From contig QHVI01000044.1 in the NCBI GenBank assembly GCA_003223515.1, positions 1-57,611 of the forward strand: a stretch of 57,611 bases of DNA, given 5' to 3'. Position numbers and translations under genes: made by a program. The notes beneath the pieces are model-generated. The model was not told the origin of the DNA. It did no database searches and saw nothing but the letters and a program-made list of their open reading frames with translations. This document shows positions 11,568-56,995 of this stretch, piece by piece. The stretch is from Candidatus Angelobacter sp. Gp1-AA117 (GTDB taxonomy: Bacteria > Acidobacteriota > Terriglobia > Terriglobales > Acidobacteriaceae). Within the stretch, counting starts at the first letter, position 1. Every line of letters begins with the position of its first letter.

Positions 11568-12275
11568 ATGAAACGTCTGCATGCTTCAGCAAGGTCGATG
11601 GTTTTTCTAATGATGGTATTTGCCGCCTCGATGGCGTTCGCGCAGGGTGGCTATGATCTTCTGCAAACCGGCAGTGGCGCGTCTATTGATCTTTCCAGTC
11701 TCGGTCTGGGCGTGGTGCCACTCCAGGGAGTGCCGATTCAGAGCTCTACCGGTTCGGCAGATACAATCGTCCATCGCACCCAGAACATCCCATCAGGCGG
11801 TGGGAGCGTACCAGTGAATGTTACCGCGCTGCTCATGAAGAGCACCAGCCCGGTAACTTTCCATAGCCAACCTGCTGATGTATATGTGACGATCAACAAT
11901 TCCGGTGGCACGATTTCGACCAGCACAGTGCCGCAGCCGGACAGCCTTTCGCCTTCAACCGGTACTGGAACGTTTCGCACGGATGGAACGTTTGACTCAA
12001 GCCTTACCGTCAATGCCGATTTGATCTTTGTAAAGGCCGGGACCAGCGTGGGAAATTCAGGGAACTACCTGGGGCATCAAGCGGCTTCGGCGATCAGCCT
12101 CAGTTCCACCAACTCAAGCTGGAGTACGACACCGCCGCCGGGGTATCCCTCATCTACAAGTTTCCCTTCGGGCGGTGTTTATCCCCGACCGGTACACACA
12201 GCCCAGCATCCAGTGGTGCCAGCCGGGCCCAGTCCCTCGCCGAGCCCGTCGCCCTCGCCGACTCGTACTCCCTAG
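11568..12275 (+). CDS. Secreted protein of unknown family, paralogue A
   Basis: Unknown family. 235 residues with a clear signal peptide ending at MAFAQ, then GGYDLLQTGSGASIDLSS and a Ser/Thr/Gly/Pro-rich body predicted to be beta strand, with no Cys and no membrane helix. It ends in a PSPSPSPSP tail. AAAGGAG precedes the ATG. The next gene encodes a close paralogue over nearly the whole length, so this is a tandem duplication. Both lie on the same strand upstream of the NusG-like gene and the enediyne-type cassette. An extracellular structural or carrier role is possible but nothing in the sequence proves it. Confidence 0.8.
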   Translation: MKRLHASARSMVFLMMVFAASMAFAQGGYDLLQTGSGASIDLSSLGLGVVPLQGVPIQSSTGSADTIVHRTQNIPSGGGSVPVNVTALLMKSTSPVTFHSQPADVYVTINNSGGTISTSTVPQPDSLSPSTGTGTFRTDGTFDSSLTVNADLIFVKAGTSVGNSGNYLGHQAASAISLSSTNSSWSTTPPPGYPSSTSFPSGGVYPRPVHTAQHPVVPAGPSPSPSPSPSPTRTP

Positions 12276-12333
12276 TAATTCCTGTTCTACCGAAGACGGC
12301 AGCGCATTTGCGCCGCCATTTTTCTGCAAGTTG

Positions 12334-12348
12334 GCAATTTGGGAGAAG
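12334..12348 (+). promoter_or_regulatory. Upstream motif shared by the two secreted-protein genes (copy 2)
   Basis: The same GCAATTTGGGAGAAG as at 11482, located in the 124-base gap between the paralogues. This suggests the second gene has its own control region. Confidence 0.35.
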
Positions 12349-12399
12349 CAGCCCATACGCGAATGGTATGTAATCAGCTCTGTTTAAGGAGTGTTTCTG

Positions 12400-13218
12400 A
12401 TGAAGCGTTTTTCCTCTCCACTATTTCAAGCTTTGTTCGTGGCTGTAATGCTGTTTGGGTGTTCGTTGATGGCTACAGCCCAGAGCGCGGGTTATGATCT
12501 GCTGCAAACCGGCTCCGGCGCATCCATTGATTTGAGCAGCATGGGTCTTGGGCAGGTGCCGCTGCAGGGTGTTCCAATCCAGGGTTCAACCGGCAGCACC
12601 GATACCATTATGCACCGCACCCAAGATGTGCCTTCGGGCGGCGGAACTGTTCCGGTAGAGCTCTATGCCTTATCTATGAAGAGCCAGAACAGCGTCACTT
12701 TCCAGGGACAACAGGCCGACGTTTATGTGACCGTGAACAACTCCGGCGGGACGATTTCCACCAGCACTCTGCCGCAGCCCGATGCGCTTTCACCTTCTAC
12801 AGGCACCGTCACAGTGCGTCCCGATGGAACGTTTGATTCCAGCATTACCATCAACGCGCAAATTATTTTCACAACTGCAGGAGGAAATCCGGCGAATTCA
12901 GCGAACGTGATTGGCCACCAGGCGGCCTCCCCGATTACGTTAAGTTCTACCAACTCGTCATGGAGCGCCAGCGCGCCCTCAGGATATCCCTCATCGAGTA
13001 CTTATCCTTCAGGCGGATTCTATCCGCGTCCGGTGCATGTAGGACCGCATCCGGTAGTGCCCAGCACCTGCAACACGAGCCCCTCGCCCAGTCCGAGTCC
13101 AACACCCAGGGTCGGATCAGGGGTGAAAGCGGCGGCGGCTCCCACCGGTAAAGCAACGCTCAACAATGGCATTACCTTCCAGACGGAATGCATCTCAAAC
13201 GTGAACTTTACCAACTAG
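12400..13218 (+). CDS. Secreted protein of unknown family, paralogue B
   Basis: Tandem paralogue of the preceding gene, 272 residues. The ATG at 12400 is preferred over the in-frame GTG at 12391 because AAGGAG sits at the right distance for the ATG. A signal peptide ends at MATAQ, and the mature protein begins AGYDLLQTGSGASIDLSS, as in paralogue A. It has the same TVNNSGGTISTST core and PSPSPSPTP linker, but continues about 35 residues further to a tail ending NVNFTN with one Cys. The two probably share a fold and location outside the cytoplasm. No database family recognised. Confidence 0.8.
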   Translation: MKRFSSPLFQALFVAVMLFGCSLMATAQSAGYDLLQTGSGASIDLSSMGLGQVPLQGVPIQGSTGSTDTIMHRTQDVPSGGGTVPVELYALSMKSQNSVTFQGQQADVYVTVNNSGGTISTSTLPQPDALSPSTGTVTVRPDGTFDSSITINAQIIFTTAGGNPANSANVIGHQAASPITLSSTNSSWSASAPSGYPSSSTYPSGGFYPRPVHVGPHPVVPSTCNTSPSPSPSPTPRVGSGVKAAAAPTGKATLNNGITFQTECISNVNFTN

Positions 13219-13738
13219 CTTTTACGCGGCGGCATGAATCGATTTTGTGCCGCCGCTCGAAAACAAAATGGGGTCAATGAGTAAGCTTAGCCGTATCGCG
13301 ATATAGAAAGACCTGCAAGTTAAAGCGCCCGCCGTCTATGTCTTCCTGGCCAGAGACTACTCTGCCGTTTCTTCCACTTTTGGAAAGTCGAACGATGTGG
13401 TGTATAGCACCTTTATGTGGTTGCGCGACATACTGCATCGGGTGTAGCGTGTGCCGCATGGGTCCCATTTGGGACTCTCTAAACTGCGATGGTTCCTGCC
13501 ATAGAGCCAGCTACACGATGAGGGTGGCGGGAATTCTCACAAGCTAACACCAGCGAGAAGCCGGGTTACCGATTGTCCCGGCCTGGCGCGCAGTTTTTCA
13601 TCCTGATGCTAGTTGCAATCTGAGTGGTTAAGGTCACATGAGCCCTGTAAGTGACGGGGCGAAGCTGCACCTTGTTCTCAACCGCTCCCAAGTGATCCTC
13701 AAGAAAAACAGCATTTTTAAACATAAAGAGAGTTGCTC
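13219..13738 (+). other. Gene-free leader region before the NusG-like gene
   Basis: No coding sequence supported in 520 bases. Several short complementary stretches (for example GTCAC near 13634 and GTGAC near 13653) could fold in RNA, but no known riboswitch or terminator is recognisable. A leader of this size ahead of a specialised NusG gene is a reasonable place for its RNA or DNA recruitment element; this is inference. Confidence 0.35.
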
Positions 13739-14293
13739 GTGCAGAACTATCCCTCCCCTATAGACGCGCACGATCCAAAATGGTTTGTGCTATTTGTGCG
13801 TTCGAATCAGGAAAAAAGAACTGCCCTGAGGCTGAAAGAGTACGCGATTGAACATTTCCTTCCCAGTTACCGGTCGGTTCGCCATTGGAAAGACCGGCGA
13901 GTCACGCTGGAGATGCCTTTGTTCCCCGGCTATGTTTTTGTGCGCCTGCCTTTTATAGAACGCGCCCGCGTGCTCACACTGCCCAATGTGGTTTCACTGG
14001 TAGGCTCCAGAAATATTCCTTCAGAAGTTGCCGAAGAGGAGATCGAATGGATCCGGCGGGCAATGGAGCATGGGAATGTAGCGCCACATCCGTATCTGAT
14101 TGCCGGCCAGCGCGTGATGATCATCTCGGGAGCATTGAGCGGCATCCAGGGAATCCTGCTGCGGCAACAGAACAACACCCGCGTGGTCATTTCCATCGAT
14201 TCGATCTCGCGCGGTTTTGTGGTGGAGGTGGATGTGGCCGCCATCCGGGTGATGGCGCATAGCGTGCCGCTGGAGAAACGGAAAGTCGTTTAA
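13739..14293 (+). CDS. Specialised NusG paralogue (UpxY/LoaP/TaA type antiterminator)
   Basis: 184-residue NusG-family transcription elongation factor. The NGN domain (KWFVLFVRSNQEK, LPSY, PLFPGYVFVRL) spans about residues 12-100, and a KOW domain (GQRVMIISGALSGIQGILL) follows at about 110-170. Start: GTG at 13739 with GAGAG six bases upstream; a TTG at 13733 leaves no space for a ribosome site. Housekeeping nusG normally lies with secE and ribosomal genes, and this copy does not, so it is a specialised paralogue. Such proteins (RfaH, UpxY, LoaP, TaA) allow RNA polymerase to read through long polysaccharide or polyketide operons. Here it lies just upstream of the unbL-pksE cassette in the same direction, so that is the likely target. 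Confidence 0.87.
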   Translation: MQNYPSPIDAHDPKWFVLFVRSNQEKRTALRLKEYAIEHFLPSYRSVRHWKDRRVTLEMPLFPGYVFVRLPFIERARVLTLPNVVSLVGSRNIPSEVAEEEIEWIRRAMEHGNVAPHPYLIAGQRVMIISGALSGIQGILLRQQNNTRVVISIDSISRGFVVEVDVAAIRVMAHSVPLEKRKVV

Positions 14294-14317
14294 GCACTCA
14301 AGTAAGAAAAAGCTTTC

Positions 14318-14383
14318 ACCGCAGAGGGCGCAGAGAACGCAAAGGATTCAAAAGGATTCAAAAGGAATTCAAAAGAAATTCAG
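14318..14383 (+). repeat. Dispersed GCAGAG repeat arm plus AAAGGATTCA tandem repeats
   Basis: CACCGCAGAGGGCGCAGAG is followed by two exact AAAGGATTCA units (14341-14360) and two decayed ones. They fill the 112-base gap between the nusG-like gene and unbL. No terminator hairpin is seen here, so the cassette could be read from upstream. Confidence 0.6.
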
Positions 14384-14405
14384 AAAACAAATTCATAGAA
14401 ACTTC

Positions 14406-15401
14406 ATGTCAAGGCTATTCCACAATCTGCTCAAGATTGATTTGCGAGAAGCGGACTTTGCGCGGCGGGGATTTCATTGCTCGCGTCCGGAAGTTCGCGA
14501 ATGGCTGGAGCACGTGGGGCGCACTTTTCTGGGTGGATACCATGCAGCATTGCAGGCGCGCTCCGATGCTGAACTGGTGGACAAGCTGGAGACGGTCGAA
14601 CCGGTGTACCGGGGCTTTGCCTATGAAGGCACGGCGATGGCGCTGGCATTGCTCGATGGAATTACACTGCGCGGCAGACGTCTGCAGCAGTTTCTCGGCG
14701 GAGCAGGACGCCACCATGTATACATGCTGCACGTAGGCGCGGGCTGGGCCGGGGCGCGACTACCCTGGCTGCGCCTGCGCATGGATACAGCCATCAGCCA
14801 ATATGATCGCGTGTTGCGCTGGCTGGCCGTGGATGGCTATGGCTTTCATGAAGGCTATTTTCACCACGACCAGGTCATTAACGCAGGCAAGCTGCCATCG
14901 CGGCTTTCAGAGACTGCCCGCCACGTCTTCCTTCAAGGTTTGGGACGCAGCTTGTGGTTCGTTCACGGCGCTGACATTCTGGAGATTTCTCAGACCATTG
15001 CCGGTTTTCATCCAGACTTTCGCGGCGATGCCTGGAGCGGCGCAGGACTGGCTTGCGCGTATGCAGGCGGAAGCAGCCGAAATGAAATAGAAGAGTTGCG
15101 CTGGATCGCGGGCTCCCATGCTTCCAGTGCAGCGCAAGGCGCTGCGTTTGCGGCCAAAGCGCGGCAGCTTGCCGGCAATCCGGCGCGGCACACTGAAATC
15201 GCCTGCGAAATCCTGTGCGGCATGAACAGCGAAAGAGCTGCCGCCCTGTGCGACGAAACTCTTGCCCAGGTAAGCGATGCTGATCCTTCGCCCTACCAGC
15301 GCTGGCGAGAGCTGCTGAGAAATTCTTTTGCTCCTTCTTTCACTCTGAGAGGTAAACCCCATGAACTCACTCCCCAACCGGCTGCGCCGAAACATTCCTA
15401 G
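14406..15401 (+). CDS. unbL: Enediyne-cassette protein UnbL (DUF1702)
   Basis: 331-residue protein of the DUF1702 family, the UNBL member of the conserved five-gene enediyne PKS cassette (PKSE, TEBC, UNBL, UNBV, UNBU). Recognisable features: a start LLKIDLREADFARRGF, then LEHVGRTFLGGYHAAL, GFAYEGTAMALALLDGI, HHVYMLHVGAGWA, DGYGFHEGYFHHDQ and LWFVHGADILEI, rich in Gly and aromatic residues. No export signal or membrane helix. The biochemical role of UNBL is not established; in actinobacterial clusters it is needed or conserved along with the PKS. The start codon has a poor ribosome site. Its 3' end overlaps unbV by 41 bases, which ties the two into one operon. Confidence 0.88.
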   Translation: MSRLFHNLLKIDLREADFARRGFHCSRPEVREWLEHVGRTFLGGYHAALQARSDAELVDKLETVEPVYRGFAYEGTAMALALLDGITLRGRRLQQFLGGAGRHHVYMLHVGAGWAGARLPWLRLRMDTAISQYDRVLRWLAVDGYGFHEGYFHHDQVINAGKLPSRLSETARHVFLQGLGRSLWFVHGADILEISQTIAGFHPDFRGDAWSGAGLACAYAGGSSRNEIEELRWIAGSHASSAAQGAAFAAKARQLAGNPARHTEIACEILCGMNSERAAALCDETLAQVSDADPSPYQRWRELLRNSFAPSFTLRGKPHELTPQPAAPKHS

Positions 15402-17313
15402 AATGGTTGCGGCTGTGCTTGTAGTCTTTCTGTTCTTTCAGGCCCGCGTGCCGGAAATTTCCGCGGGCGAGCGGCTGCAACTGGCTTCGCGTTTTCATTT
15501 CACGCGGCACACTCTGCCTTCAAGCGGTGATCTGAATGCGAGAACCGTAAGGCCGGTGCAGCCGAGCTTGAAACGCATCTCCGCATGGATTTCGTCAGTA
15601 GGCGCGGCCATCGCGGCCGGCGATCTCGATGGCGATGGTCTTTCGAATGACACATGCCTGGTTGATCCGCGCAGCGATCAGGTCACCATTGCACCGGCGC
15701 CCACTACCGGGGAGAGATACAAGCCATTCACGCTGCGGCCGGCCAGCTACGATCCTGAAACGATGGCTCCGATGGGCTGCCTGATTGGTGATCTGAATGA
15801 AGATGGCCTGGCAGATATTGTCGTTTATTACTGGGGACGAACACCGGTTGCTTTTCTGCGCACCGGCGGCACTCCCGGTCACGCGAGCGTGCTGGAAGCG
15901 AAGAATTATCAGGCGGTGGAGCTTGTCCCCGGCAACCAGCGCTGGTTCACCAATGCGGCGCTGTTTGCCGATCTGGACGGCGATGGGCATCCTGACCTGA
16001 TCATCGGCAATTATTTCCAGGATGGCGGCCACATTCTCGATGCTTCGGCCAATGGCGTGGAGACGATGCACAACACCAAGTCACGCTCTTTCAACGGCGG
16101 CAGCAAGCATGTGCTGTTGTGGAAAGAGGCAGGCGGTGGCGAGCATCCATTCGTGCGTTTTGAAGAAGCAAAGAATGTATTCAGCCTGGCGGTGGAGCAT
16201 GGCTGGACATTAGGGGCAGGAGCGCAGGACCTGCATGGCGATCTGCTGCCTGAACTTTATTTCGCTCACGATTTCGGTCCTGACCGGCTGCTGCACAACC
16301 GTTCCACTCCCGGACATCTGGCGTTTGATCTGCTCGAAGGCACGCGCGGGTTCACTACACCTGCCTCGAATGTGCTGGGGCGCGATTCATTCAAAGGCAT
16401 GGGAGTAGATTTTGCGGATGTGAATGGCGATGGCATCCCGGATATTTTTGTGAGCAACATTGCGGATGATTACGCGCTGCAGGAGAGCCATTTCCTGTGG
16501 TTGAGCACCGGTGACAAAGAGGCGATGAAGAAGGGCAAAGCGCCTTACGTCCAGGCCAGCGAGCGGCTGGGACTCTCACGCAGCGGCTGGGGCTGGGATG
16601 CGCGCATGGCCGACTTCGACAACGATGGCCAGCTTGAAATTGTGCAGGCCACCGGATTCATGAAAGGCAAGATCAATCGCTGGCCGGAACTGCAATCGCT
16701 GGGAACATCGAATGACAGCCTGATTCACGATCCGCGGCTGTGGCCGGGGTTCAAGCCGGGTGACGATGTGAGCGGCGACAACAAGACTGCATTCTTCGTG
16801 CAGGCTGCCGATCATCGCTACTACAACATTGCAGAGGAAACCGGACTCGCTATTCCGGCAAATACGCGCGGAATCGCAGTTGCCGACGTAGACGGCGACG
16901 GGCGGCTGGACTTCATCATCGCCGATCAATGGGGCGATTCGTACCTCTACAAAAATGAAGGCTCTTCACAAGGAGCGTTTCTCGGATTGCATCTGGTGCT
17001 GCCGGTGAAGGGCGGGCCCGCGGTATTCCGGGAGCGCGCCGGACATCCCGGACCCGATCTCTATGGCAGGCCTGCATTCGGAGCGACTGCGGTGGTCGAG
17101 CTTCCGGATGGGCGCAAGTTTTCCGCGCAGGTAGATGGCGGCAGCGGACATTCCGGCAAGCGCAGCCCTGATCTTCATTTCGGACTGGGCAGGATTTCGC
17201 CTGACACGCTGCTACGAGTGAACCTGGCATGGCGCAACAGCAACGGGCAGGTCGTAAGAAAACAAATTGATGTGAAACCAGGCTGGCACAGCGTTGAGCT
17301 TGGAAGTGAATGA
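15361..17313 (+). CDS. unbV: UnbV, FG-GAP/CRTAC1-like exported protein (copy 1)
   Basis: 650-residue UNBV protein of the enediyne cassette. An N-terminal hydrophobic segment (MVAAVLVVFLFFQ) gives export or anchoring. The body is a beta-propeller-like series of FG-GAP/EF-hand-like calcium motifs: DLDGDGLSND, DLNEDGLADI, DLDGDGHPDL, DVNGDGIPDI and DVDGDGRLDFI. The C-terminus has the ASPIC/UnbV signature GHSGKRSPDLHFGLG. GAGAGG precedes the ATG, inside the end of unbL. The stop lies 10 bases before the unbU ATG. It is closely similar over its full length to the second copy at 25349, more so than expected for distant paralogues. Acts outside the cytoplasmic membrane; exact reaction unknown. Confidence 0.9.
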   Translation: MNSLPNRLRRNIPRMVAAVLVVFLFFQARVPEISAGERLQLASRFHFTRHTLPSSGDLNARTVRPVQPSLKRISAWISSVGAAIAAGDLDGDGLSNDTCLVDPRSDQVTIAPAPTTGERYKPFTLRPASYDPETMAPMGCLIGDLNEDGLADIVVYYWGRTPVAFLRTGGTPGHASVLEAKNYQAVELVPGNQRWFTNAALFADLDGDGHPDLIIGNYFQDGGHILDASANGVETMHNTKSRSFNGGSKHVLLWKEAGGGEHPFVRFEEAKNVFSLAVEHGWTLGAGAQDLHGDLLPELYFAHDFGPDRLLHNRSTPGHLAFDLLEGTRGFTTPASNVLGRDSFKGMGVDFADVNGDGIPDIFVSNIADDYALQESHFLWLSTGDKEAMKKGKAPYVQASERLGLSRSGWGWDARMADFDNDGQLEIVQATGFMKGKINRWPELQSLGTSNDSLIHDPRLWPGFKPGDDVSGDNKTAFFVQAADHRYYNIAEETGLAIPANTRGIAVADVDGDGRLDFIIADQWGDSYLYKNEGSSQGAFLGLHLVLPVKGGPAVFRERAGHPGPDLYGRPAFGATAVVELPDGRKFSAQVDGGSGHSGKRSPDLHFGLGRISPDTLLRVNLAWRNSNGQVVRKQIDVKPGWHSVELGSE

Positions 17314-17323
17314 GGAGCAAAAC

Positions 17324-18091
17324 ATGGCATACGCGACACTGAATTTCTATCCCAACAAAGACCCTAAGATGCGGTTCTTTGCGTTATGGTATTTCTGCAC
17401 GCTGCTCATTCTCTGGACCATACTCGGCGATACCGTGCTGGGATTTGAGCAGTCATACGCGCAACCCATCGTGGCGGTGCTTACAGCGTGCGTTGTGGCA
17501 TTCCTGCTGGAATGGCTTGATGCCAAGGTGAACAACCGCACGCCACGATTTGCGGGAAGCTGGCGGAACGCAGTGAACTTCCTGCCGCCATGCATTATTC
17601 CCGGCCTGGCGTGCGCGATGCTGATTTACCCCAACGAGCGGCTGAGCCCGATTGTTTTTGCGGCGGCAATGTCACTGGCATCGAAGGTGCTGATTCGCGC
17701 GCCGATCGGGAATGGACAGACGCAGCATGTTTTCAATCCTTCAAACGCGCAGGCGCTGATTCGCAGCATGATCTTTCATACGCCACTGGCAGTGCCGTTT
17801 CTGCCAATGACCAGCGCAGGATTCATTCTGTTCGCGCTGTACATGATTCCCGATCCGGCGACCACGCCTATCAAACCTTTGCGGCAAGTGCTGTTCGGGC
17901 TGAGCGTGGCCACGCTCTATGCGCTCCTCTTTGTCGCTCATGTGGTGTATGGCCTGTTCCTTGCCCTGGCGCTCACCAGCGCCACCAGAGGGATTTCGCT
18001 GTGGGTGAATGCTCAACTCAAGCGTAAACCGGCGCCCCAGCCTGTGATGAGGGTGCGGGAACGTCCGCAAGTGGCAATCGCAGGCGACTGA
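17324..18091 (+). CDS. unbU: UnbU, polytopic membrane protein (copy 1, internally shortened)
   Basis: 255-residue UNBU-type integral membrane protein. The ATG at 17324 is set by GAGGAG six bases upstream; a TTG at 17294 would only add a tail overlapping unbV. It has five to six hydrophobic helices, and the FNPSN and DPATTP motifs recall the NqrB/RnfD membrane flavoprotein family, to which UnbU proteins are related. Compared with copy 2 at 27311, residues after NPSN (position 141) jump directly to AQALIRSMIFHTP. About 63 residues, roughly two helices, are missing in frame near base 17747. It may still fold, or it may have lost function, with copy 2 compensating. It is followed 13 bases later by pksE. 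Confidence 0.85.
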   Translation: MAYATLNFYPNKDPKMRFFALWYFCTLLILWTILGDTVLGFEQSYAQPIVAVLTACVVAFLLEWLDAKVNNRTPRFAGSWRNAVNFLPPCIIPGLACAMLIYPNERLSPIVFAAAMSLASKVLIRAPIGNGQTQHVFNPSNAQALIRSMIFHTPLAVPFLPMTSAGFILFALYMIPDPATTPIKPLRQVLFGLSVATLYALLFVAHVVYGLFLALALTSATRGISLWVNAQLKRKPAPQPVMRVRERPQVAIAGD

Positions 18092-18104
18092 CAGGGGGCC
18101 TTTA

Positions 18105-21100
18105 ATGAGTGCAATTGCGATCGTGGGCATGGCGTGCCGCTATGCCGAAGCGCGTTCTCCACGGCAATTGTGGGAGAACGTGCTGGCACAGAGGAGATCT
18201 TTCCGGCGCATACCGCGCGTGCGTCTGCGCGTGGAAGACTACGCGGTGGAGGGCCAGGTGGAAGACCGCATCTATCTGACAGCGGCCGCCGTGCTTGAAG
18301 ACTACGAATTCGACCGCGTGCGCTTCCACGTTTCGAAAGAGACATTCGTTTCTACCGACCTCGCTCATTGGCTAGCGCTGGATACTGCCGCACAGGCATT
18401 AACCGATGCCAGATTGCTGGAGTCCAGCGCCAGCCAGCGCGAGCGCACCGGCGTTTATATCGGCAACTCGCTGACGGGTGAATTTTCCCGCGCCAATCTC
18501 CTGCGGCTGCGCTGGCCGTATGTACGGCGCGTGCTGATGGCCGTCCTCGAAGAGAACAACACCAGCCGCAGCGAGATGGAAAAACTGGTGCAACAGATGG
18601 AAGCGCTGTACAAGAATCCATTTCCGGCGACCACCGAAGAATCGCTGGCGGGCGGCTTGGCCAACACGATTGCCGGACGCCTCTGCAATTACTTCAACTT
18701 CCAGGGCGGCGGCTACACCGTAGATGGCGCCTGCGCTTCCAGCCTGCTGGCGGTGACCACGGCATGTTCGGCCCTGGAAAGCGGTGACGTTGATGTTGCC
18801 ATTGCAGGCGGAGTGGACCTGAGTCTTGATCCATTTGAACTGGCAGGATTCTCCAAGCTGGGCGCGCTGGCGAAAGACAAGATGCGCATCTTTGATGAGC
18901 AATCATCGGGCTTCTGGCCGGGCGAGGGCTGCGGCATGGTGGTGCTCATGCGCCATGAAGATGCCCTGGCGCATCAACTGCCCGCGTATGCCGTAATTCG
19001 CGGCTGGGGAGTTTCTTCCGACGGCAGCGGCGGCATCACGAGGCCGGAACCGAGCGGACAAATACTGGCGTTGCGCCGGGCCTACCAGCGCGCGCAATAC
19101 CAGATCGACGATGTGGCCTATTTTGAAGGCCACGGCACTGGAACAAATGTGGGCGATGCCGTGGAGTTGCAGGCGCTCTCTGCAGCAAGACGTGAAGTGC
19201 AGCCGAATGCCGCGCCTGCGGCGATTGGGTCAATCAAAGCCAACATTGGACACACCAAAGCTGCGGCTGGAGTTGCGGGACTGATCAAAGCGGTCATGGC
19301 GGTGCAGGCAAAGATTCTTCCGCCGACGACTGGATGCGAGAAGCCACACGCGGAACTCACGGCAGACAGGCCGATGCTGCGCGTGCTCCAGGAAGGCGAG
19401 CTGTGGCCGGAGGAGTTGCCGGTGCGCGCCTCAGTGAGCGCCATGGGCTTTGGTGGCATCAACACCCATGTCACCCTGGAAGCTCCGGATGTCTTCCGCC
19501 GGAAGAGCTTTACCGCGTTTGAGCAGACGCAGCTTGCTTCAGCGCAGGATTGCGAGCTGTTTCTTTTCCAGGCGGCTGATGCCGAGCAACTGGCTGAGCA
19601 GTTGCAAAACACCCTGGAGCTTGCCGGTGAGCTGTCTTACGCAGAGCTGACCGATCTGGCTGCGGCGCTGGTGAAAAATCTATCGCCAGAGAAATCGATT
19701 CGCGCTGCATGCGTGGCTTCCAGTCCTGAAGAACTCGAAAGAAACCTGAAAAAGCTGAAAGAGTGGTGCACAGCGGGAGTGCCGGAGGAAATCGATCCCC
19801 GGCAGGGAATGTTTCTGAGTCATCGCGAGGAGTCTCCGCGCATAGGATTTCTCTTTCCCGGACAAGGCTCGCCGGTTCATACCGAAGGCGGGATATGGTC
19901 GCGCCGGTTCCCTGGGATACGCGATCTGTACCAGCGCGCCAGCCTGCCAAAAACGAAAAGCATTGCCACAGAAACAGCGCAGCCCAGCGTGGCCACTGCT
20001 TCGCTCGCCGGGCTGCGCGCGTTGCAGTCTTTGGGAATTGAAGGCGCGGTTGCCGTGGGACACAGCCTGGGAGAAATTACGGCGCTGCACTGGGCCGGCG
20101 CCTGCGGTGAAGACGATCTGCTGCGCATCGTTTCGCATCGTGGACGGGTAATGGCGGAGATGGCGACGCCTTCAGGGACCATGGCTTCCATCCGCGCTAA
20201 CTGGCAGGAGGTGAAGCAAAGGCTGAATGGCGATCCGTTGGTGATTGCCGGATACAACTCTCCGCGACAGACGGTGATCTCCGGTGATGCTCAGGCGGTC
20301 AGGCGTTTTACGGGCAGGCTCAGCTCCGATGGCATTGCCACTACCATGCTGCCGGTTTCCCATGCCTTTCATTCCCCGCTGGTGGAGAACGTGGCGGCTG
20401 TTTTCTCCTCGTATCTGGCGGCGGAACACTTGGGAGCGGTGAGGCAGCGCGTGATTTCAACGGTGACCGGATCGGTGCTACAGCAGGATAGTAATCTTCA
20501 CGAACTGCTGACCCGGCAGATCACGATGCCGGTGCGCTTTGCCGATGCGGTGATGATGGCTGCGGTGGAAGCCGGCCTGTTCATCGAGGTGGGCCCGGGC
20601 GCGGTGCTCTCTGGAATTACCGTTGAATGCACAAACAAGCCGGTGATTGCGTTAAACGTTGGCGGAGATTCGCTGCGCGGTCTGCTCATGGCTGCGGGAG
20701 CGGCTTTTGCCATGGGCGCGAAGGTGCGCGCGGCAGCGCTGTTTGAGAACAGGTTTTTCCGCCCGCTTGATCTCAGGCGCAGGCATACGTTCCTGGCTAA
20801 TCCGTGTGAGAGCATCTCCGCGCCGGAGATTGCAGTGCCTTCCGTGCCGGCCGCGCCTAAACAGTTCGCAGTAGCAGAAAAGCCTGTAACTCGTGATGCT
20901 GTGGAGATCCTGCGCCATCTGGTGGCCCAGCGGACTGAGTTGCCGCTGAGCGCCATCACACCGGAAAGCAGGTTTCTCGATAACCTGCACCTGAATTCCA
21001 TCACCATTAGCCAGATCATCCTTGAAGCTGCGGCGCAGTTAGATCTTTCGCCTCCAGTGGCCCCGGCTGAGTACATCAACGCCAGCATTCGCCGGGCCGC

Positions 21101-23843
21101 AGAGGCCCTGGAGCAGATGCGGCAGCTTGCGCCTGCGCAGGCGGCTGAAAAGCATCCGCAGGGAGTGGAACCATGGACGCGGGTATTGGAAATTGAGTAT
21201 GTGGAGCAGCCCCGGCGGGCTGCACATTCCGGTTCAGCAGGGAAGTGGGAAATATTGGCGCTGGACGGCTCATCGCTGAAGCAGCAACTGGAAGAAGAAT
21301 CCGGCAGGCTTTCAGGAGACGGACTGCTGTGCTGTGTTCCTGCGCGGCGTGATGAAAGAACGGCTGCGTTTCTGCTGCAATCTGTACAAACGGCTCTTCG
21401 GGGGAACGTGCGACAGGTAGTGTTTGTGCAGCAGAGTGGAGGAGCGTCGGCGCTGGCCCGCACGCTGTATCTGGAATGTCCTGCGATGAAAGTCACTGTG
21501 GTGGATGTGCCGCACGATCATCCACAGGCGGTCGAGTGGATCATTCAAGAAGCAAACTGTGCCGCGGGGTTCACCGAAGCGCGCTATGACAAAGCGGGAG
21601 TCCGCCGCGAACCGCGCATCAAGGTTCTGTGGCCGGAAAAGAGCAGCGAAAATCCATTCACACCGGACGACCTGCTGCTGGTAACGGGCGGCGGCAAGGG
21701 CATCGCCGCTGAATGCGCGCTGCAACTGGCGCGCGAGTTTGGATTTCGCCTGGCGTTACTAGGGAGATCGGATGCATCGCAAGATGCAGAACTCAAGCAG
21801 AACCTGCAGCGCTTCAGCGAGGCGGGTATTTCCTTCCGCTATTTCACGGCTGATGTTACAGATGCCCAGGCTACAGCCAGGGTGATTCAGCAGATTCAGG
21901 TAGAAGCGGGCACGATCACGGGGGTGCTGCACGGCGCAGGAACTAATCTACCTAAGCGCCTGGAAGAGATCACTACCGCTGACCTGCAGGCGACGCTCGC
22001 TCCCAAGGTTGCAGGCCTGGAAAATATTCTGAACAACATTGATGCGCGCCACATGCGTCTGCTACTCACCTTTGGGTCGATTATTGGACGGGCCGGACTG
22101 CATGGTGAAGGGCATTATGCGCTGGCTAACGACTGGTTGAATCTCGCGGTGGAGCAATGGCAGAGGGAGCATCCGGAGTGCCGCTGCATGAATCTCGAGT
22201 GGTCGGTATGGGCAGGCGCAGGCATGGGCCAGCGGCTGGGTGTATTGGAATCGCTGGTGCAGCAGGGCATCACGCCGCTGCCGCTCGAAGATGCCATTGG
22301 CACGTTAAAAACCATGATGGCATGGAAAGGGGCCCCAGTCTCTTCTATCGTGACGGGACGCTTCGGTAATCTGCCGACGCTGCAATTTGAGAAACGCGAG
22401 CTTCCGCTGCTGCGTTATCTCGAGCATGTGCAGGTGCATTATCCGGGCATTGAACTGGTAGCGGATTCGGAGCTGAGCACAGATACCGACCCATATCTCG
22501 CCGATCACAGCTTCCAGGGCGAACAGCTTCTCCCGGCGGTATGCGGCATTGAGGCGATGGCCCAGGTAGCCGTGGCGCTGGAACAAACCTCAGAGTTGCC
22601 GAAATTTCAGAACCTGCGTTTCGAGCACCCGATTGTGGTACCGGCGCGCAAACCGGTCAGGATACGAGTGGCAGCCCTGAAACTTTCACCGGAAAGAATC
22701 GCGGTTGTGATTCGCTGCTCCACGACGTCATTCCAGGTGGATCACTTCAGCGCTGAATGTGTGTTCCATACGAGGCATGAGGTTTCCAGGATGCCCGATG
22801 ACTTGCATGCAGGAGCCAGTCCGCTGCCGCTCGATCCGTCTCACGATTTGTATGGCGGCATCCTCTTCCACACAGGACGCTTCCGCCGCGTGGAGAGATA
22901 CCACCTGCTGCTGGCCGACCGAAGCGTTGCCGCATTGAATGCTCCCATTTCTGCAGCGTGGTATGCGCGGCACCTGCCGGGCGAATTCCTGCTGGGTGAC
23001 GCCGCTTCCCGCGATGCGGCACTGCATTCCATTCAGGCGTGCATTCCGCACAAGACTATCCTGCCGATAGGCATTGACCGCATCATTGTTGATCCAGGGT
23101 GGACTCATGAAAGCGCAACAGTGTACGCGATGGAACGCCTGCGCGACGGTGAAAACTTTATCTACGATCTATGGATTCAGGATGCGCGCGGCAACACGCT
23201 GGAAACGTGGAAAGGGCTGCACCTGCGGGCCGTGGCTTTTACTGAAGCTCCGGAATTATGGCCTGTGGCTTTGCTGCCGCCATACATAGAACGAAAGCTA
23301 AGTGAGCTGATTGGGTCGACAAATCTGAAAGTTGCGCTGGCGGGATGCAGAGACGAGATTGCCGACCTGGTCCAACAAATGGCCGGGCCGGAAGCAACGA
23401 TCAGCCATCGCCCTGATGGCAAGCCTGAGTTACCGGGAGCGGAGATTTCTCTCTCGCGCAGCGGCCAGCTCACGCTGATTGCGACAAGTGGTGTATCCCT
23501 TGGCTGCGACATGGAGAAGGTAGTGCCGCGTGAATGGGAAAAGCTTCTGGGGAATGAGGGATTTGCGCTGGCGCAGCTCGTCAGCCGCAGAGCAAACATC
23601 GATCTCGATGCGGCTGCCGCGCAGGTGTGGACGGTCAGAGAAGGGCTGCGCAAGTGTGGTGCGAGTTTTGACCAGCAGTTGCGGTGGAAATCATCCTCTG
23701 CGGATGGATGGAGTGTTTTCTCGGCCCAGGGGTTTGCGGCGGCAACGTTTTCGGCGCAGATACAGGAAGGCAGTTCTTTCGCGTTCGGATTTGTTGTGAA
23801 ACCCGCCCATGAACAGAGGGAAACAGCGGCAGGGGCTGCTTGA
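18105..23843 (+). CDS. pksE: Enediyne-type iterative type I polyketide synthase
   Basis: 1912-residue iterative PKS with the PksE domain order. KS is at about 1-465 (Cys210 in DGACASS, His343 in GHGTGT, His383 in NIGHTKAAAG). AT is at about 575-900 (Ser654 in GHSLGE, HAFHS at 756). ACP is around Ser965 (LHLNSITI). KR is at about 1185-1430 (VTGGGKGI, Ser1325, Tyr1338). DH is at about 1450-1690 (His1468 in ADHSFQGEQLLP). A C-terminal phosphopantetheinyl transferase follows at about 1740-1912 (GCDMEKV, Asp1802; WTVREGLRK, Glu1846). All catalytic residues are present. The start MSAIAIVGMACRYAEA is typical of PksE. PksE enzymes activate their own ACP and make a conjugated C15-C16 polyene, the precursor of enediyne cores and shunt polyenes. 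No docking or reductase additions. Confidence 0.95.
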   Translation: MSAIAIVGMACRYAEARSPRQLWENVLAQRRSFRRIPRVRLRVEDYAVEGQVEDRIYLTAAAVLEDYEFDRVRFHVSKETFVSTDLAHWLALDTAAQALTDARLLESSASQRERTGVYIGNSLTGEFSRANLLRLRWPYVRRVLMAVLEENNTSRSEMEKLVQQMEALYKNPFPATTEESLAGGLANTIAGRLCNYFNFQGGGYTVDGACASSLLAVTTACSALESGDVDVAIAGGVDLSLDPFELAGFSKLGALAKDKMRIFDEQSSGFWPGEGCGMVVLMRHEDALAHQLPAYAVIRGWGVSSDGSGGITRPEPSGQILALRRAYQRAQYQIDDVAYFEGHGTGTNVGDAVELQALSAARREVQPNAAPAAIGSIKANIGHTKAAAGVAGLIKAVMAVQAKILPPTTGCEKPHAELTADRPMLRVLQEGELWPEELPVRASVSAMGFGGINTHVTLEAPDVFRRKSFTAFEQTQLASAQDCELFLFQAADAEQLAEQLQNTLELAGELSYAELTDLAAALVKNLSPEKSIRAACVASSPEELERNLKKLKEWCTAGVPEEIDPRQGMFLSHREESPRIGFLFPGQGSPVHTEGGIWSRRFPGIRDLYQRASLPKTKSIATETAQPSVATASLAGLRALQSLGIEGAVAVGHSLGEITALHWAGACGEDDLLRIVSHRGRVMAEMATPSGTMASIRANWQEVKQRLNGDPLVIAGYNSPRQTVISGDAQAVRRFTGRLSSDGIATTMLPVSHAFHSPLVENVAAVFSSYLAAEHLGAVRQRVISTVTGSVLQQDSNLHELLTRQITMPVRFADAVMMAAVEAGLFIEVGPGAVLSGITVECTNKPVIALNVGGDSLRGLLMAAGAAFAMGAKVRAAALFENRFFRPLDLRRRHTFLANPCESISAPEIAVPSVPAAPKQFAVAEKPVTRDAVEILRHLVAQRTELPLSAITPESRFLDNLHLNSITISQIILEAAAQLDLSPPVAPAEYINASIRRAAEALEQMRQLAPAQAAEKHPQGVEPWTRVLEIEYVEQPRRAAHSGSAGKWEILALDGSSLKQQLEEESGRLSGDGLLCCVPARRDERTAAFLLQSVQTALRGNVRQVVFVQQSGGASALARTLYLECPAMKVTVVDVPHDHPQAVEWIIQEANCAAGFTEARYDKAGVRREPRIKVLWPEKSSENPFTPDDLLLVTGGGKGIAAECALQLAREFGFRLALLGRSDASQDAELKQNLQRFSEAGISFRYFTADVTDAQATARVIQQIQVEAGTITGVLHGAGTNLPKRLEEITTADLQATLAPKVAGLENILNNIDARHMRLLLTFGSIIGRAGLHGEGHYALANDWLNLAVEQWQREHPECRCMNLEWSVWAGAGMGQRLGVLESLVQQGITPLPLEDAIGTLKTMMAWKGAPVSSIVTGRFGNLPTLQFEKRELPLLRYLEHVQVHYPGIELVADSELSTDTDPYLADHSFQGEQLLPAVCGIEAMAQVAVALEQTSELPKFQNLRFEHPIVVPARKPVRIRVAALKLSPERIAVVIRCSTTSFQVDHFSAECVFHTRHEVSRMPDDLHAGASPLPLDPSHDLYGGILFHTGRFRRVERYHLLLADRSVAALNAPISAAWYARHLPGEFLLGDAASRDAALHSIQACIPHKTILPIGIDRIIVDPGWTHESATVYAMERLRDGENFIYDLWIQDARGNTLETWKGLHLRAVAFTEAPELWPVALLPPYIERKLSELIGSTNLKVALAGCRDEIADLVQQMAGPEATISHRPDGKPELPGAEISLSRSGQLTLIATSGVSLGCDMEKVVPREWEKLLGNEGFALAQLVSRRANIDLDAAAAQVWTVREGLRKCGASFDQQLRWKSSSADGWSVFSAQGFAAATFSAQIQEGSSFAFGFVVKPAHEQRETAAGAA

Positions 23844-23994
23844 TAAGGCATCCAGGAACCATACCGCCCGCTTCACGGGCTCTTCGACTTTTCCCCTACG
23901 CACCCAAGCTTGCGGTGTGGCTAAAAGAATATCGCCAGCTTCGCTGGCTGTGCGGCGAGCACAGGTGTAAATCGGATTCCAGAGAGCAAGAGCC
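23844..23994 (+). other. Gap between pksE and tebC with a small hairpin
   Basis: GCCCG, CTTCA and CGGGC (23866-23880) form a 5-bp hairpin without a long T tract, so a weak attenuator at best. Otherwise no gene. Confidence 0.35.
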
Positions 23995-24429
23995 ATGATC
24001 AATGCATACGAATACCGGCATGTAGTTGGGTTTGAAGAGACCAGCCTGGTGGGCAACGTCTATTACGCGAACCACCTGCACTGGCAGGGACGAGCCCGCG
24101 AGATGTTTCTGCGCGATTATGCTCCGGAAATCCTCGAAGAGATGGAGCGCGGACTGGCGCTGATTACATTGCGCTGCTCCTGCGAATACCTGGGCGAGTT
24201 GAAAGCGTTTGACCAGGTGATTGTCCGCATGTTCCTGGCAGCCACATCGCAGAACCGCATTGCCATGCGCTTTCAATACTGGCGCGAAGGCGAGCAGCGC
24301 GAATTAGTGGCGCGCGGCGAGCAGGAGATCGCCTGCATGCGAAGGCAGGGAGACAATCTGATTCCCGCCGCGATACCGGCATGCTTGCGGGAAGCGTTGG
24401 CGCCCTTTGCAGAGGCAGTGCACCAGTAA
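23995..24429 (+). CDS. tebC: Enediyne hot-dog thioesterase TebC (CalE7/SgcE10/DynE7 type)
   Basis: 144-residue single hot-dog-fold thioesterase. It opens YEYRHVVGFEETSLVGNVYYANHLHWQGRARE in continuous sequence, the segment that in CalE7-type enzymes carries the substrate-binding Arg and Asn/Tyr residues. LRCSCEYLGELKAFDQV and the QNRIAMRF strand follow, as in the 4-hydroxybenzoyl-CoA thioesterase superfamily. It is expected to release the polyene beta-keto acid from the PksE ACP. Length matches the family. It is the fifth gene of the cassette, so all five conserved members lie within 10 kb in the order unbL-unbV-unbU-pksE-tebC. Confidence 0.92.
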   Translation: MINAYEYRHVVGFEETSLVGNVYYANHLHWQGRAREMFLRDYAPEILEEMERGLALITLRCSCEYLGELKAFDQVIVRMFLAATSQNRIAMRFQYWREGEQRELVARGEQEIACMRRQGDNLIPAAIPACLREALAPFAEAVHQ

Positions 24430-24469
24430 GACACAATCAGACATCCGGCAGAATTTCAGAAAGGAACTT

Positions 24470-25324
24470 ATGGCTACAGCAGTTGTGCGCGACGCAACCG
24501 TGCGCTCTCACTATGATTCCGTGGAGCGCGTGATTACCACGATGAGGAGCCACATCGACCAGCCTCTCTCACTGCACTCGATGGCAAAGGTGGCGTGCGC
24601 AAGCCCCTTCCATTTCAACCGCACCTTTCGCCATGTGACGGGCGTGCCGCCTTCGCAGTTCCTGTATGCACTGCGGCTGGATGAGGCACGGCGGCTGCTC
24701 ATAGAGACTGAAAAGAAGGTCATCGACATCTGCTATGACGTGGGCTACAACAGCGTAGGCACATTCACGCGCCGGTTTACCGATCTGCTGGGGGTCTCCC
24801 CGAGCACCTTCCGCGATCTCGCGCGGCTGCCGCTCATGCATGCGCCTGAGTATCCTGCGCCAATGATCATTGCCAATGGCCACTTGAAAAAAGGGCCGGC
24901 GATTTGCGGGCGTGTTCATGCCCCGGCGGATTTTCGCGGCTTTATTTTCGTGGGGCTGTTCAGCACTCCCGTACCGCAGGCCAGGCCGGTGGCCTGCGCC
25001 ATCGCTGATGAAAGCGGCTTCTATCATCTGGAACGTGTTCCTGAGGGAGAGTTCTACCTGTTCGCGCTGGGCATGGAGCAGACTGCACCCGCATCTGCCT
25101 ATTTCCAGTACGATTCGGCACTGCGCGCCGGCGGACACTCCATTTCAGTGACCCGCAATTCCATCTATGGCGCTACGAATTTATATCTGCGGCCTTCTTC
25201 CTCATTTGATCCCCCTATTCTTCTGGTGCTCGCGTTATTGATGGAGGAATACTTCGAGCGCGTCGAACAGATTCCATCTGCGGTCTTCGTTACACCGGCG
25301 TTGCTGGCCCATGCGCAAGGATGA
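24470..25324 (+). CDS. AraC-type regulator with C-terminal transthyretin-like domain
   Basis: 284 residues. The ATG at 24470 follows AAGGA; the frame upstream overlaps tebC and lacks a start signal. An AraC double helix-turn-helix occupies about residues 15-118 (SLHSMAKVACASPFHFNRTF; ICYDVGYNSVGTFTRRF; GVSPSTFR). Unusually the DNA-binding part is N-terminal. It is followed by a beta-rich region at about 143-205 (GRVHAPADFRGFIFVGLF, DESGFYHLERVPEGEFYLFA) that reads like a carboxypeptidase-regulatory/transthyretin-like sandwich, then about 80 residues of uncertain type. No sugar-binding AraC pocket. Placed between tebC and the second unbV on the same strand, it is the likely local regulator. 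Confidence 0.85.
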   Translation: MATAVVRDATVRSHYDSVERVITTMRSHIDQPLSLHSMAKVACASPFHFNRTFRHVTGVPPSQFLYALRLDEARRLLIETEKKVIDICYDVGYNSVGTFTRRFTDLLGVSPSTFRDLARLPLMHAPEYPAPMIIANGHLKKGPAICGRVHAPADFRGFIFVGLFSTPVPQARPVACAIADESGFYHLERVPEGEFYLFALGMEQTAPASAYFQYDSALRAGGHSISVTRNSIYGATNLYLRPSSSFDPPILLVLALLMEEYFERVEQIPSAVFVTPALLAHAQG

Positions 25325-25348
25325 ATCGTTCAGATAAAGGGCTTCTTT

Positions 25349-27295
25349 ATGAAAAGCATTCTTGAGCAGCTCAAAGCTCGCCTGAAAATCATCGTCTCGC
25401 TGGTAATCGTGATTGGGCTGTATCTGGCGATACAGCTTCCCGGTGTTTCGGCGAACGAGAAGTCTTCCCTGGCCAGCCGTTTTCATTTTGACCGGACGGC
25501 GCTGCCGCGGGTCCCTGGTTTCCCCAAGAAAAACGCGCGGGTGGTGAATCCTCGCTTGCAGAAAATCTCTGCCTGGATTTCTTCGGTGGGCGCTTCCGTG
25601 GCCCTCAACGATCTCGATGGTGATGGCTTGCCGAATGATGCCTGTTATGTCGATCCCAGGATGGATCAGGTGATCGTAACTCCGGTTCCCGGAACTCCGG
25701 CACGTTACCAGCCGTTTGTCTTGAGTGCCGCGCCGCTGCCTTATGATGCGGCCACCACTGCGCCGATGGGATGCCTGCCACTGGATGTGAATGAAGACGG
25801 GCTTCTCGATATCGTGGTGTATTACTGGGGGCGCTCGCCCATCATCTTCCTGCAAAAGAAGATGCAGCAACCTCTGGGCCGGGAGAGCTACGTGGCTCAG
25901 GAACTTCTGCCCAAGGTGGAAGACTGGTACACCAACGCCGCCACTGCCGCTGATCTCGATGGCGATGGCCACATTGACCTGATCTTTGGAAATTATTTCG
26001 GCGATGGTTCGCGCATTCTCGATGCGCACTCCAGCTATGCGGCGGAGATGCCGGATTCCATGTCGCGCGCCTTCAACGGCGGCAGCAAGCATTTCCTGCT
26101 GTGGAAGAGCGCCAGCGGCGGTGACGCGCCGAAGGTGGAGTTCAGCGATCAGCGCGAGGTGCTTGAGGGCGCTGCCAAATCCGGCTGGACTCTGGCCCTG
26201 GCCGCCTGCGATCTCGATGGAGATATGCTTCCCGAGGTCTACATTGCCAATGATTTCGGGCCGGATGTGCTGCTGCACAACGTCTCCACTCCCGGCCACC
26301 TGCATTTTCAGCGCCTGATGGGCAAGCGCACGCTGATGACCCCGGCCTCGAAGGTGCTGGGGCATGATTCGTTCAAGGGCATGGGCGTGGATTGCGGCGA
26401 TCTGAACCAGGACGGCCTGCCGGACTTCGTAGTCAGCAACATCACATCAGAGTTCGCGCTGGAAGAGAGCAACCTGGTGTATCTCAGCACCGGCGATCTG
26501 AAGGCGATGCAGAAAGGCTTTGCTCCGTTCAAGGAAGTCAGCGAACCGCTGGGGCTTTCACGCAATGGATGGTCGTGGGACATCCGCTTTGGCGACTTCG
26601 ATAATGAAGGGACGCTGCAGGTGGTGCAGGCTGCCGGTTTCGTGAAAGGGAACACCGACCGCTGGCCTGAACTGCATGAGCTTGCCATGGGCAATGATGG
26701 TTTGTTGCGGCATCCGGCAAGCTGGCCGCGTTTCCATCCGGGCGATGACCTGAGCGGGAGCGACCACAATCATTTCTTTGTCCCATCTTCTGGTGGAACG
26801 TATGTTGATCTTTCCCAAGAGTTGCGCCTGGATAATCCGCAGGTCACGCGAGGAATTGCCACTGCGGATGTAGATGGAGATGGCTTGCTGGATTTCGCCA
26901 TCGCCAATCAGTGGCAGGATTCAGCCTTCTATCACAATGAGAGCAAGGCCGCAGGCCATTTCCTGCAACTCTATCTGCTGTTGCCGGTGAATGCAGGCGC
27001 AGGCGCCTTAACCAGAGATATGCCGGGTCATCCCACACGCGAGATTCAGGGCCGGTATGCCATAGGCGCCACAGCCACGGTTCATCTGCGGAATGGCAAG
27101 CGCATGATCGCCCAGGTGGATGCCGGCAACGGGCACTCCGGCAAGCGCAGCCCGGAATTGCATTTCGGACTGGGACAATTTTCTTCTTCGGAGCCGGTGG
27201 CGGTGGATCTCTGCTGGCGCGACCGGAACGGAACGATTCATCGCGAGACACTCAGCCTGAAACCGGGCCTGCATACCATCGTGCTCGGGTCTTAA
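25349..27295 (+). CDS. unbV: UnbV, FG-GAP/CRTAC1-like exported protein (copy 2)
   Basis: 648-residue paralogue of the UnbV at 15361, collinear throughout. It has an export segment (IVSLVIVIGLYLAIQLPGV), the repeated calcium motifs DLDGDGLPND, DVNEDGLLDI, DLDGDGHIDL, DLNQDGLPDF and DVDGDGLLDFAI, and the C-terminal GHSGKRSPELHFGLG. Start ATG 24 bases after the AraC stop, with AAAGG upstream. It is followed 15 bases on by its own unbU. Duplication of the pair as a unit implies that UnbV and UnbU work together at the membrane. Confidence 0.9.
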   Translation: MKSILEQLKARLKIIVSLVIVIGLYLAIQLPGVSANEKSSLASRFHFDRTALPRVPGFPKKNARVVNPRLQKISAWISSVGASVALNDLDGDGLPNDACYVDPRMDQVIVTPVPGTPARYQPFVLSAAPLPYDAATTAPMGCLPLDVNEDGLLDIVVYYWGRSPIIFLQKKMQQPLGRESYVAQELLPKVEDWYTNAATAADLDGDGHIDLIFGNYFGDGSRILDAHSSYAAEMPDSMSRAFNGGSKHFLLWKSASGGDAPKVEFSDQREVLEGAAKSGWTLALAACDLDGDMLPEVYIANDFGPDVLLHNVSTPGHLHFQRLMGKRTLMTPASKVLGHDSFKGMGVDCGDLNQDGLPDFVVSNITSEFALEESNLVYLSTGDLKAMQKGFAPFKEVSEPLGLSRNGWSWDIRFGDFDNEGTLQVVQAAGFVKGNTDRWPELHELAMGNDGLLRHPASWPRFHPGDDLSGSDHNHFFVPSSGGTYVDLSQELRLDNPQVTRGIATADVDGDGLLDFAIANQWQDSAFYHNESKAAGHFLQLYLLLPVNAGAGALTRDMPGHPTREIQGRYAIGATATVHLRNGKRMIAQVDAGNGHSGKRSPELHFGLGQFSSSEPVAVDLCWRDRNGTIHRETLSLKPGLHTIVLGS

Positions 27296-27310
27296 GAGAG
27301 AACCAATTTC

Positions 27311-28243
27311 ATGATGATGAAAGAAATGTCACCGGCAGATCGTCTTGCTGGATTGCGGCGCTTCGCTATTGCCATCACCGCATTTAATGTCCTGGGCCAT
27401 ACGGTATTCGGTTTCGAGCAGGCATGGATTCAGCCATTCGTAGGCATCGGCTCTGCGTATGCGTGCGAACTGGTGCTGGAACTAATCGACTGCTACACGC
27501 AGAAGCGCAAACCACGCTTCATGGGAGGTTGGCGCACGGTAGTGGACTTCTTCCTCTCCGCTCACATCACCGGTCTGGCGGTGGCGATGCTGCTCTACAC
27601 CAACACGCGCCTGCTGCCCATTGCCTTTGCCGCTGCTGTGGCTATTACTTCCAAGGCATTGTTCAGAGTGGCGTGTCCGAATGGCACGCGTCACTTCCTG
27701 AATCCCTCGAATTTCGGGATCACGGTGACGCTGCTGTTGTTCGCGTGGGTGGGGATTGCTCCGCCGTATCATTTCACCGAGAACATTCACGGCTGGGGAA
27801 GCTGGATTCTTCCTGCGGCAATCGTCTGCAGCGGCAGTTTGCTGAACACATTTGTCACTAAGAGAATCCTGGTGGCGCTGGGCTGGATCTCGGGATTCTT
27901 TGTTCAGGCCGTCTTTCGCAACCTGGTGTTCGATACTCCCTTGACTTTGGCGGTGTTGCCGATGACCGGCGTGGCCTTTGTCCTGTTTACCTTTTATATG
28001 GTCACCGATCCGGCGACCACTCCCGGAACACGGCAACGACAATTTCTGTTCGGCGCTGCCGTGGCGGCTGTGTATGGATTGCTGGTGATGTCACACATAG
28101 TGTTCGGCTTCTTCTTCTCGCTTACGCTGGTGTCGTTCACGCGTGGCGCTTCGATCTATGCGAGCAATTTATTGAAACAGACAGTGATGCGGAAAGCTCC
28201 AGCACAAGCGACCATGGCCTCGGCCAAAGAGATGGCCGGATAG
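27311..28243 (+). CDS. unbU: UnbU, polytopic membrane protein (copy 2, full length)
   Basis: 310-residue UNBU-type membrane protein with about eight hydrophobic helices. It has FLNPSN (residues 130-134) and TDPATTP (about 233-238), related to the NqrB/RnfD flavin-dependent membrane subunits. It retains residues 135-197 (GITVTLLLFAWVGI through GWISGFF) that are absent from copy 1. Length is closer to actinobacterial UnbU proteins, so this is likely the ancestral form. Last gene of the cluster; a terminator hairpin follows within 25 bases. Confidence 0.88.
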   Translation: MMMKEMSPADRLAGLRRFAIAITAFNVLGHTVFGFEQAWIQPFVGIGSAYACELVLELIDCYTQKRKPRFMGGWRTVVDFFLSAHITGLAVAMLLYTNTRLLPIAFAAAVAITSKALFRVACPNGTRHFLNPSNFGITVTLLLFAWVGIAPPYHFTENIHGWGSWILPAAIVCSGSLLNTFVTKRILVALGWISGFFVQAVFRNLVFDTPLTLAVLPMTGVAFVLFTFYMVTDPATTPGTRQRQFLFGAAVAAVYGLLVMSHIVFGFFFSLTLVSFTRGASIYASNLLKQTVMRKAPAQATMASAKEMAG

Positions 28244-52687: not shown

Positions 52688-52780
52688 GCGCACTCAGCAG
52701 TCAGACCCTGAATGTCACCACCGGCCTTCAATGCAATCCGAGCAGATGCAGACCGCTGGATTACCGGAGAGGCGCTAAGG

Positions 52781-56364: not shown

Positions 56365-56375
56365 GATACTAAGAT

Positions 56376-56765: not shown

Positions 56766-56995
56766 CAGAGTACGCAGAGGGATTGGGTAAATGGTTGATT
56801 TGGTAAGTGAGTAAACGAGACCTGCCTCAAAATTAGTAATTTACTCCTTCTTCTCTGCGCTCTCTGCGTCCTGCCCTAAAAATAGCTGCCCTAAAAATAG
56901 CTGGGTGCTTACGGTGGATACCTTAACCCGAAGCGCAATTTTCATGTTTTCTGGGTGGGACGTTAGTCCCATGTCCGACTGCGGTAAAAGCATTT

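Follow-up and report, generated by a model that had tools for sequence, protein, structure and literature searches.

In actinomycetes, the five-gene set E3/E4/E5/E/E10 starts the synthesis of enediyne antibiotics, and the conversion of the heptaene into the enediyne core is a long-standing question. What, then, would such a set make in an acidobacterium, and which of its neighbors belong to it? We analyzed a stretch of 57,611 nucleotides from Candidatus Angelobacter sp. Gp1-AA117 (QHVI01000044.1; hereafter the window). It corresponds to contig C8 of the genome, which totals 6.48 Mb on 206 contigs. The locus is a genuine enediyne-type cassette, and its kind is widespread outside actinomycetes and chemically unexplored. 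New in it are the likely exchange of a UnbV-UnbU module and a family of predicted barrel proteins.

Organization of the locus and proposed pathway

The principal genes (11568–28243) all lie on the plus strand, in the order barrels A and B, NusG/UpxY, UnbL, UnbV1, UnbU1, PksE, TebC, AraC, UnbV2 and UnbU2. UnbL, UnbV, UnbU, PksE and TebC are contiguous, and an AraC gene and another UnbV-UnbU pair come next. An earlier note on positions 13739..28243 had described this arrangement, which holds on re-examination. The spacing from UnbL to UnbU2 is tight, with overlaps of at most 41 bp, gaps of 13–24 bp and a single 151-bp gap upstream of TebC. That range does contain the cassette, but the gene at 13733–14293 is a NusG paralog that had been overlooked, not a cassette enzyme, and the tandem genes at 11568–13218, which belong with the cassette, had been left out.

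We propose, with a probability of roughly 55% for the whole, that the joint product of PksE and TebC would be a C15 polyene hydrocarbon, and that UnbU and UnbV, predicted to lie at the membrane side, would likely oxidize it together with UnbL. The two predicted exported barrels would likely bind it outside the cytoplasm, and the end product may be an enediyne, a polyyne or a plain polyene. With the NusG/UpxY protein and a leader element, RNA polymerase would be able to transcribe the whole operon of roughly 14.5 kb, and the AraC regulator would switch it on. Sequence alone establishes which genes are present and in what order, the clade of the ketosynthase (KS), the shortening of UnbU1, the presence of a second pair and the occurrence of the barrel family together with the cassette.

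Identity of the cassette

PksE (18105..23843, 1912 aa) has the domain order KS-AT-ACP-KR-DH-PPTase with the conserved motifs of an enediyne cassette; Pfam detects KS, AT, KR and DH, and the ACP and PPTase were located by alignment alone, with SgcE and eight other PksE proteins. The catalytic residues had been described as intact, and every residue checked in this alignment is present (KS C210/H343/H383, AT S654, ACP S965, KR S1325/Y1338/N1342, DH H1468/D1581), as are the PPTase segments GCDME and WTVREGLRKCG. TebC (E10, 23995..24429) is a thioesterase of the CalE7 type, with matches to CalE7 (2w3x, E 2.2e-44), the ‘ACP-polyene thioesterase’ 4i4j (4.7e-41) and DynE7 (4.6e-39). Adjacent to PksE are homologs of E3 (UnbL, 14406..15401; DUF1702, PF08012, 348.8 bits, E 2.9e-104), E4 (UnbV1, 15361..17313; FG-GAP and ASPIC, PF07593 and PF13517) and E5 (UnbU1, 17294..18091), though this E5 is shortened and a full-length second E5 lies downstream. 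PMC5181780 describes the five-gene enediyne polyketide synthase cassette and how it serves as a marker.

A maximum-likelihood tree built from 72 KSs sets the enediyne KSs apart at 100/100, in agreement with the enediyne type assigned earlier. Nine rows were removed beforehand, namely two duplicates (L038, L023), three partial sequences (L049, L069, L087) and four duplicate outgroup KSs. The window KS is 58–74% identical to most complete enediyne-group KSs (lowest 50%, for L042, a Sinorhizobium plasmid row whose group label in the tree is wrong and whose branch is long), and at most 38% identical to KSs of the polyunsaturated fatty acid (PUFA) and modular kinds. The phylogenetic comparison that the earlier note had suggested does not place it in the PUFA clade. 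Its nearest relatives are the KSs of two other species, represented by genomes G398 and G401 (100/98), followed by that of Bryobacterales F-183 (91/97). The Acidobacteriota KSs are scattered across the tree, and another genome of the genus, G257, carries a PksE from a different lineage. Nine actinomycete KSs, including SgcE, form their own clade (100/99) without the window KS.

Two alternatives were rejected: a PUFA synthase (PfaA), on the basis of the tree and of a TIGR02813 score of 498.6 bits against a cut-off of 1010.1, and recent transfer from actinomycetes, on the basis of the separate actinomycete clade. The KSs of a ‘Rhizobium’ metagenome bin (L071) and of the cyanobacterium Microseira wollei (L075) are 97% identical, which reflects either transfer or a binning error.

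The cassette shares all five genes and the PksE domain order with that of C-1027 (Streptomyces globisporus, L041), with a KS 60% identical to SgcE and a TebC of the CalE7/DynE7 type. It differs from C-1027 in the position of its KS outside the actinomycete clade, in having neither E6–E11 nor a P450 within the window, in its shortened UnbU1, and in the addition of a second UnbV-UnbU pair, a NusG gene, a leader element and predicted exported barrels.

Distribution

DUF1702 is present in 12 of 396 genomes of a phylum sample versus none of 14 control genomes, and the match is far beyond chance. The earlier note had considered that the cassette might be absent from related genomes; DUF1702 was found in five of nine genomes of the genus, and TebC is strong in the same five and weak (E 4e-4) in a sixth. 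A genome scan with a single PksE sequence as query found no relative. The acidobacterial host is supported by G401, of the same genus, which shares sequence with an ‘Acidobacteriaceae bacterium’ (L047).

A search of a species-level collection with a TebC alignment identified 505 stretches encoding TebC relatives. This distribution suggests a wider chemistry of which the enediynes of actinomycetes form a single branch. The best 80 of the 505, which come from many phyla, were kept as the locus sample, and the sample therefore leans to the TebC type of the window. Its 75 non-actinomycete loci, read over flanks of 10 kb or up to the contig end, encode a PksE of at least 900 bits in 52 cases and all five genes in 33.

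Enediyne KSs in several non-actinomycete phyla, anaerobes included, are reported in PMC10308959, the excerpts of which mention Acidobacteria solely in other contexts, and a cassette of E3, E4, E5, E and E10, described as having an unclear function, is reported for the methanotrophs Methyloprofundus and Methylotuvimicrobium (PMC8788690). The present locus shares with these cases the enediyne-type KS or the five genes, as well as the lack of a known product; neither barrels nor pair exchange are mentioned in the excerpts of the two papers. ‘Enediyne’ genes are described as enriched in soil bins of several phyla, with Acidobacteria given for E4 only (PMC9723772), and are named as enriched in marine Gallionella (PMC12607638). 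Several close homologs bear the name Candidatus Angelobacter, and two (P0012, P0035) are already annotated publicly as UnbU. This lineage is noted for its many gene clusters in PMC9723581, where a term search finds no ‘enediyne’. Literature searches limited to open-licence papers, and mostly to listings of them, showed neither an acidobacterial enediyne cassette nor a barrel linked to a cassette.

Tailoring genes and the nature of the product

As the earlier note had stated, there are no recognizable tailoring genes around the cassette: a Pfam scan of 48 frames in the window found no such family. None of the C-1027 maturation and tailoring genes E6, E7, E8, E9, E11 and F lies beside the cassette, which is not a complete enediyne cluster in this respect. 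The genome itself has no SgcE7-like P450 and weak GMC matches only (the genome-wide search did not extend to E6, E8, E11 and F); it contains a single P450 in all (PF00067). This lack had been taken as distinctive, a view that we reject because it is the rule among the non-actinomycete loci examined. Only three of the 75 match any of the six C-1027 tailoring proteins, in each case the P450, and none has a homolog of E6, E8, E9, E11 or F at 40 bits or more. A tailoring match was found in all five actinomycete genome loci and in three of four actinomycete plasmid loci. These counts apply to C-1027 proteins at a 40-bit threshold and to at most 10 kb on each side, many contigs being shorter. A Streptomyces clavuligerus plasmid (L044) carries an actinomycete five-gene cassette with none of the six homologs within 12 kb.

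If tailoring genes are lacking, UnbL, UnbV and UnbU would be left as the candidates for core formation. It is also quite possible, if not our preferred reading, that the product is a polyene or polyyne lipid instead of an enediyne warhead, that is, a C15 polyene which, because maturation enzymes are missing, is only partly oxidized and functions as a lipid of the membrane or surface or as a pigment lipid, carried by the barrels. The missing E6, E8, E9, E11 and F homologs in the 75 loci, the P450 content of the genome itself, and the spread of cassettes across many phyla, with enediyne KSs even in anaerobes (PMC10308959), would all fit such a lipid. However, UnbL, UnbV and UnbU are kept and are conserved with enediyne clusters, the enediyne core could form without E6–E11, and the loci were covered for at most 10 kb to each side, with many contigs shorter than that.

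UnbV-UnbU pairs and the shortened UnbU1

The cassette had been called complete, which is too strong, as its UnbU1 has 265 residues compared to about 317 in homologs. A 63-residue in-frame internal deletion, with a junction near 17746–17750, removes all of the stretch aligned with UnbU2 residues 135–197. None of 65 other aligned UnbU sequences loses more than half of this stretch, and UnbU1 is shorter than every other of the 120 homologs listed. Its partner UnbV1 is 75% identical to the G401 counterpart and has a hydrophobic N-terminal stretch resembling a membrane anchor (anchors and signal peptides were assessed by eye here and below).

The second pair consists of UnbV2 (25349..27295), which is 75% identical to a UnbV on a separate contig of G398, and UnbU2 (27311..28243), which is full length with 310 aa. 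In a predicted model, UnbU2 fits the membrane fold of PF03116 (RnfD/NqrB superfamily); the Pfam match is below cut-off, and the likeness is one of predicted fold, with an identity of 12–18%. RnfD and NqrB are membrane subunits of electron-transfer complexes. Since the UnbU of pair 1 is shortened here, pair 1 is absent from the G398 cassette, and a pair of the second lineage is present in both genomes, we infer that UnbV-UnbU is an exchangeable module, and that pair 2 would supply the UnbU activity in the window genome. Such a natural swap suggests that UnbV and UnbU work together.

We consider it less probable, while a real contender, that the deletion is an assembly artefact and that the cassette has two working UnbV-UnbU pairs. 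The draft genome, with its 206 contigs, probably represents a metagenome bin, the deletion keeps the frame exactly, and the flanking parts of UnbU1 are conserved; on the other hand, a real loss would be in frame one time in three, and pair 1 is independently absent from the G398 cassette. The unmatched shortness of UnbU1 among the homologs listed is compatible with either explanation.

A divergent DUF1702 gene with a UnbV-UnbU pair is found in genome G391 (L029, L030), where frames on the contig match PksE piecewise (KS, AT and KR-DH parts), possibly representing a split or distant PksE system.

Predicted barrel proteins

Barrel A (11568..12275, 235 aa) is a predicted exported protein of a ‘GxxDTIxxR’ family, and barrel B (12391..13218) is its tandem paralog, with 71% identity over the matched part. 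The predicted fold of both may be nearest to DynF (6ubl), a lipid-filled barrel of the dynemicin pathway (PMC8725005). In contrast to DynF, both have signal-like N-termini, and any likeness is one of predicted fold: barrel profiles searched to E 10 against PDB sequences did not reach DynF, and Foldseek found nothing at E ≤ 0.001 in the PDB or viral models. The barrels would likely bind a greasy product. A product-binding role had been thought missing from the locus; the overlooked and probably exported upstream pair are candidates for it.

The barrel family is present in five of the nine genomes of the genus, which are not independent of one another, with no match in the remaining four and merely two marginal matches in the other 195 genomes of the family. 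In six loci, from four other Acidobacteriota, a cyanobacterium and a Troglogloeales bin, a barrel gene adjoins TebC, AraC or UnbU; in Thioploca it lies on the cassette contig, 9.5 kb away. Acidobacteriota thus account for four of these seven loci. Four of the seven were already matched by the initial narrow profile, with E values no higher than 4e-6; L049, L050 and L059 fell below E 1e-3 only through profile iteration, and L085 (E 0.0011) was left out of the count. No protein named by its source as an enediyne gene was among the matches of the broad profile. In the Troglogloeales locus (L059, 3767–5905), one protein seems to contain two copies of the barrel domain, with repeats of the calcium-binding type after them.

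It is less probable, though still a fair possibility, that the barrels are hitchhikers, exported proteins of the lineage inherited with the cassette and having no role in it. In its favor, sequence conservation between phyla is weak, co-occurrence within the genus may reflect descent, and the protein collection holds 380 homologs at E ≤ 0.001 with genomic context unseen. Against this stand the split within the genus, the near-absence elsewhere in the family, the adjacency in six loci with the shared contig in Thioploca, and the narrow-profile matches. Through its association with cassettes of several phyla, this probably exported family opens a new way into export and self-protection and provides a possible partner of the polyene that can be tested; if the assignment is true, an exported DynF-like barrel would be an undescribed cassette component.

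Chromoprotein apoproteins carry and shield the product in actinomycetes. By analogy, we suggest very tentatively, and against the odds as we judge them, that many non-actinomycete cassettes may be stand-alone minimal systems, in which PksE, TebC, a swappable UnbV-UnbU pair and UnbL make a reactive C15 product that, in some, an exported DynF-like barrel carries and shields outside the cell.

That the cassette is decaying and has no product is very improbable: UnbU1 is shortened, but PksE is open with its motifs intact, and the full-length second pair starts 24 bp downstream of AraC.

Regulation

The NusG paralog (13733..14293) exceeds the cut-off of the NCBIfam model for the UpxY subfamily (NF033644, 114.6 versus 100 bits) and falls under those for LoaP and RfaH. 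Like the specialized NusG antiterminators UpxY and LoaP, it is encoded upstream of a long operon, and it is kept at the same place in G398 and G401. Upstream of it on the same strand, a 41-bp leader element (13626..13666, AGGTCACA....CCCTGTAAGTGACGGGGCGAAGCT) differs little among the window, G398 and G401 although the spacer around it has diverged, and its last 24 bases are identical in the three species. It contains an inverted repeat, GTCAC/GTGAC. Its 19-base core occurs in eight of 150 loci, every one a copy of the cassette leader from the same three species, and a search of Rfam with the element gave two matches at chance level only. Because the core is identical in the three species, the pseudoknot-like appearance of the leader offers no covariation to test. 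We infer a role of this element in antitermination.

The AraC gene (24407..25324; PF12833) is kept after TebC in G398 and G401. In the regulator, the helix-turn-helix lies close to the N-terminus, and the C-terminal part matches no Pfam family. Genes similar to it adjoin cassettes in several phyla.

Neighboring genes

An AbiEi/AbiEii toxin-antitoxin pair (28336–29810) directly follows the operon; its GC content at third codon positions is 0.54 and 0.46, compared to 0.59–0.70 for the operon and barrels. Contigs C90 and C109 of the same genome carry large polyketide synthase genes with open frames of ~4000 aa. Near the end of the window (52712–57355), an ArsA-like ATPase gene is followed by gas-vesicle genes, two GvpL/GvpF and one GvpK, in this acidobacterium.
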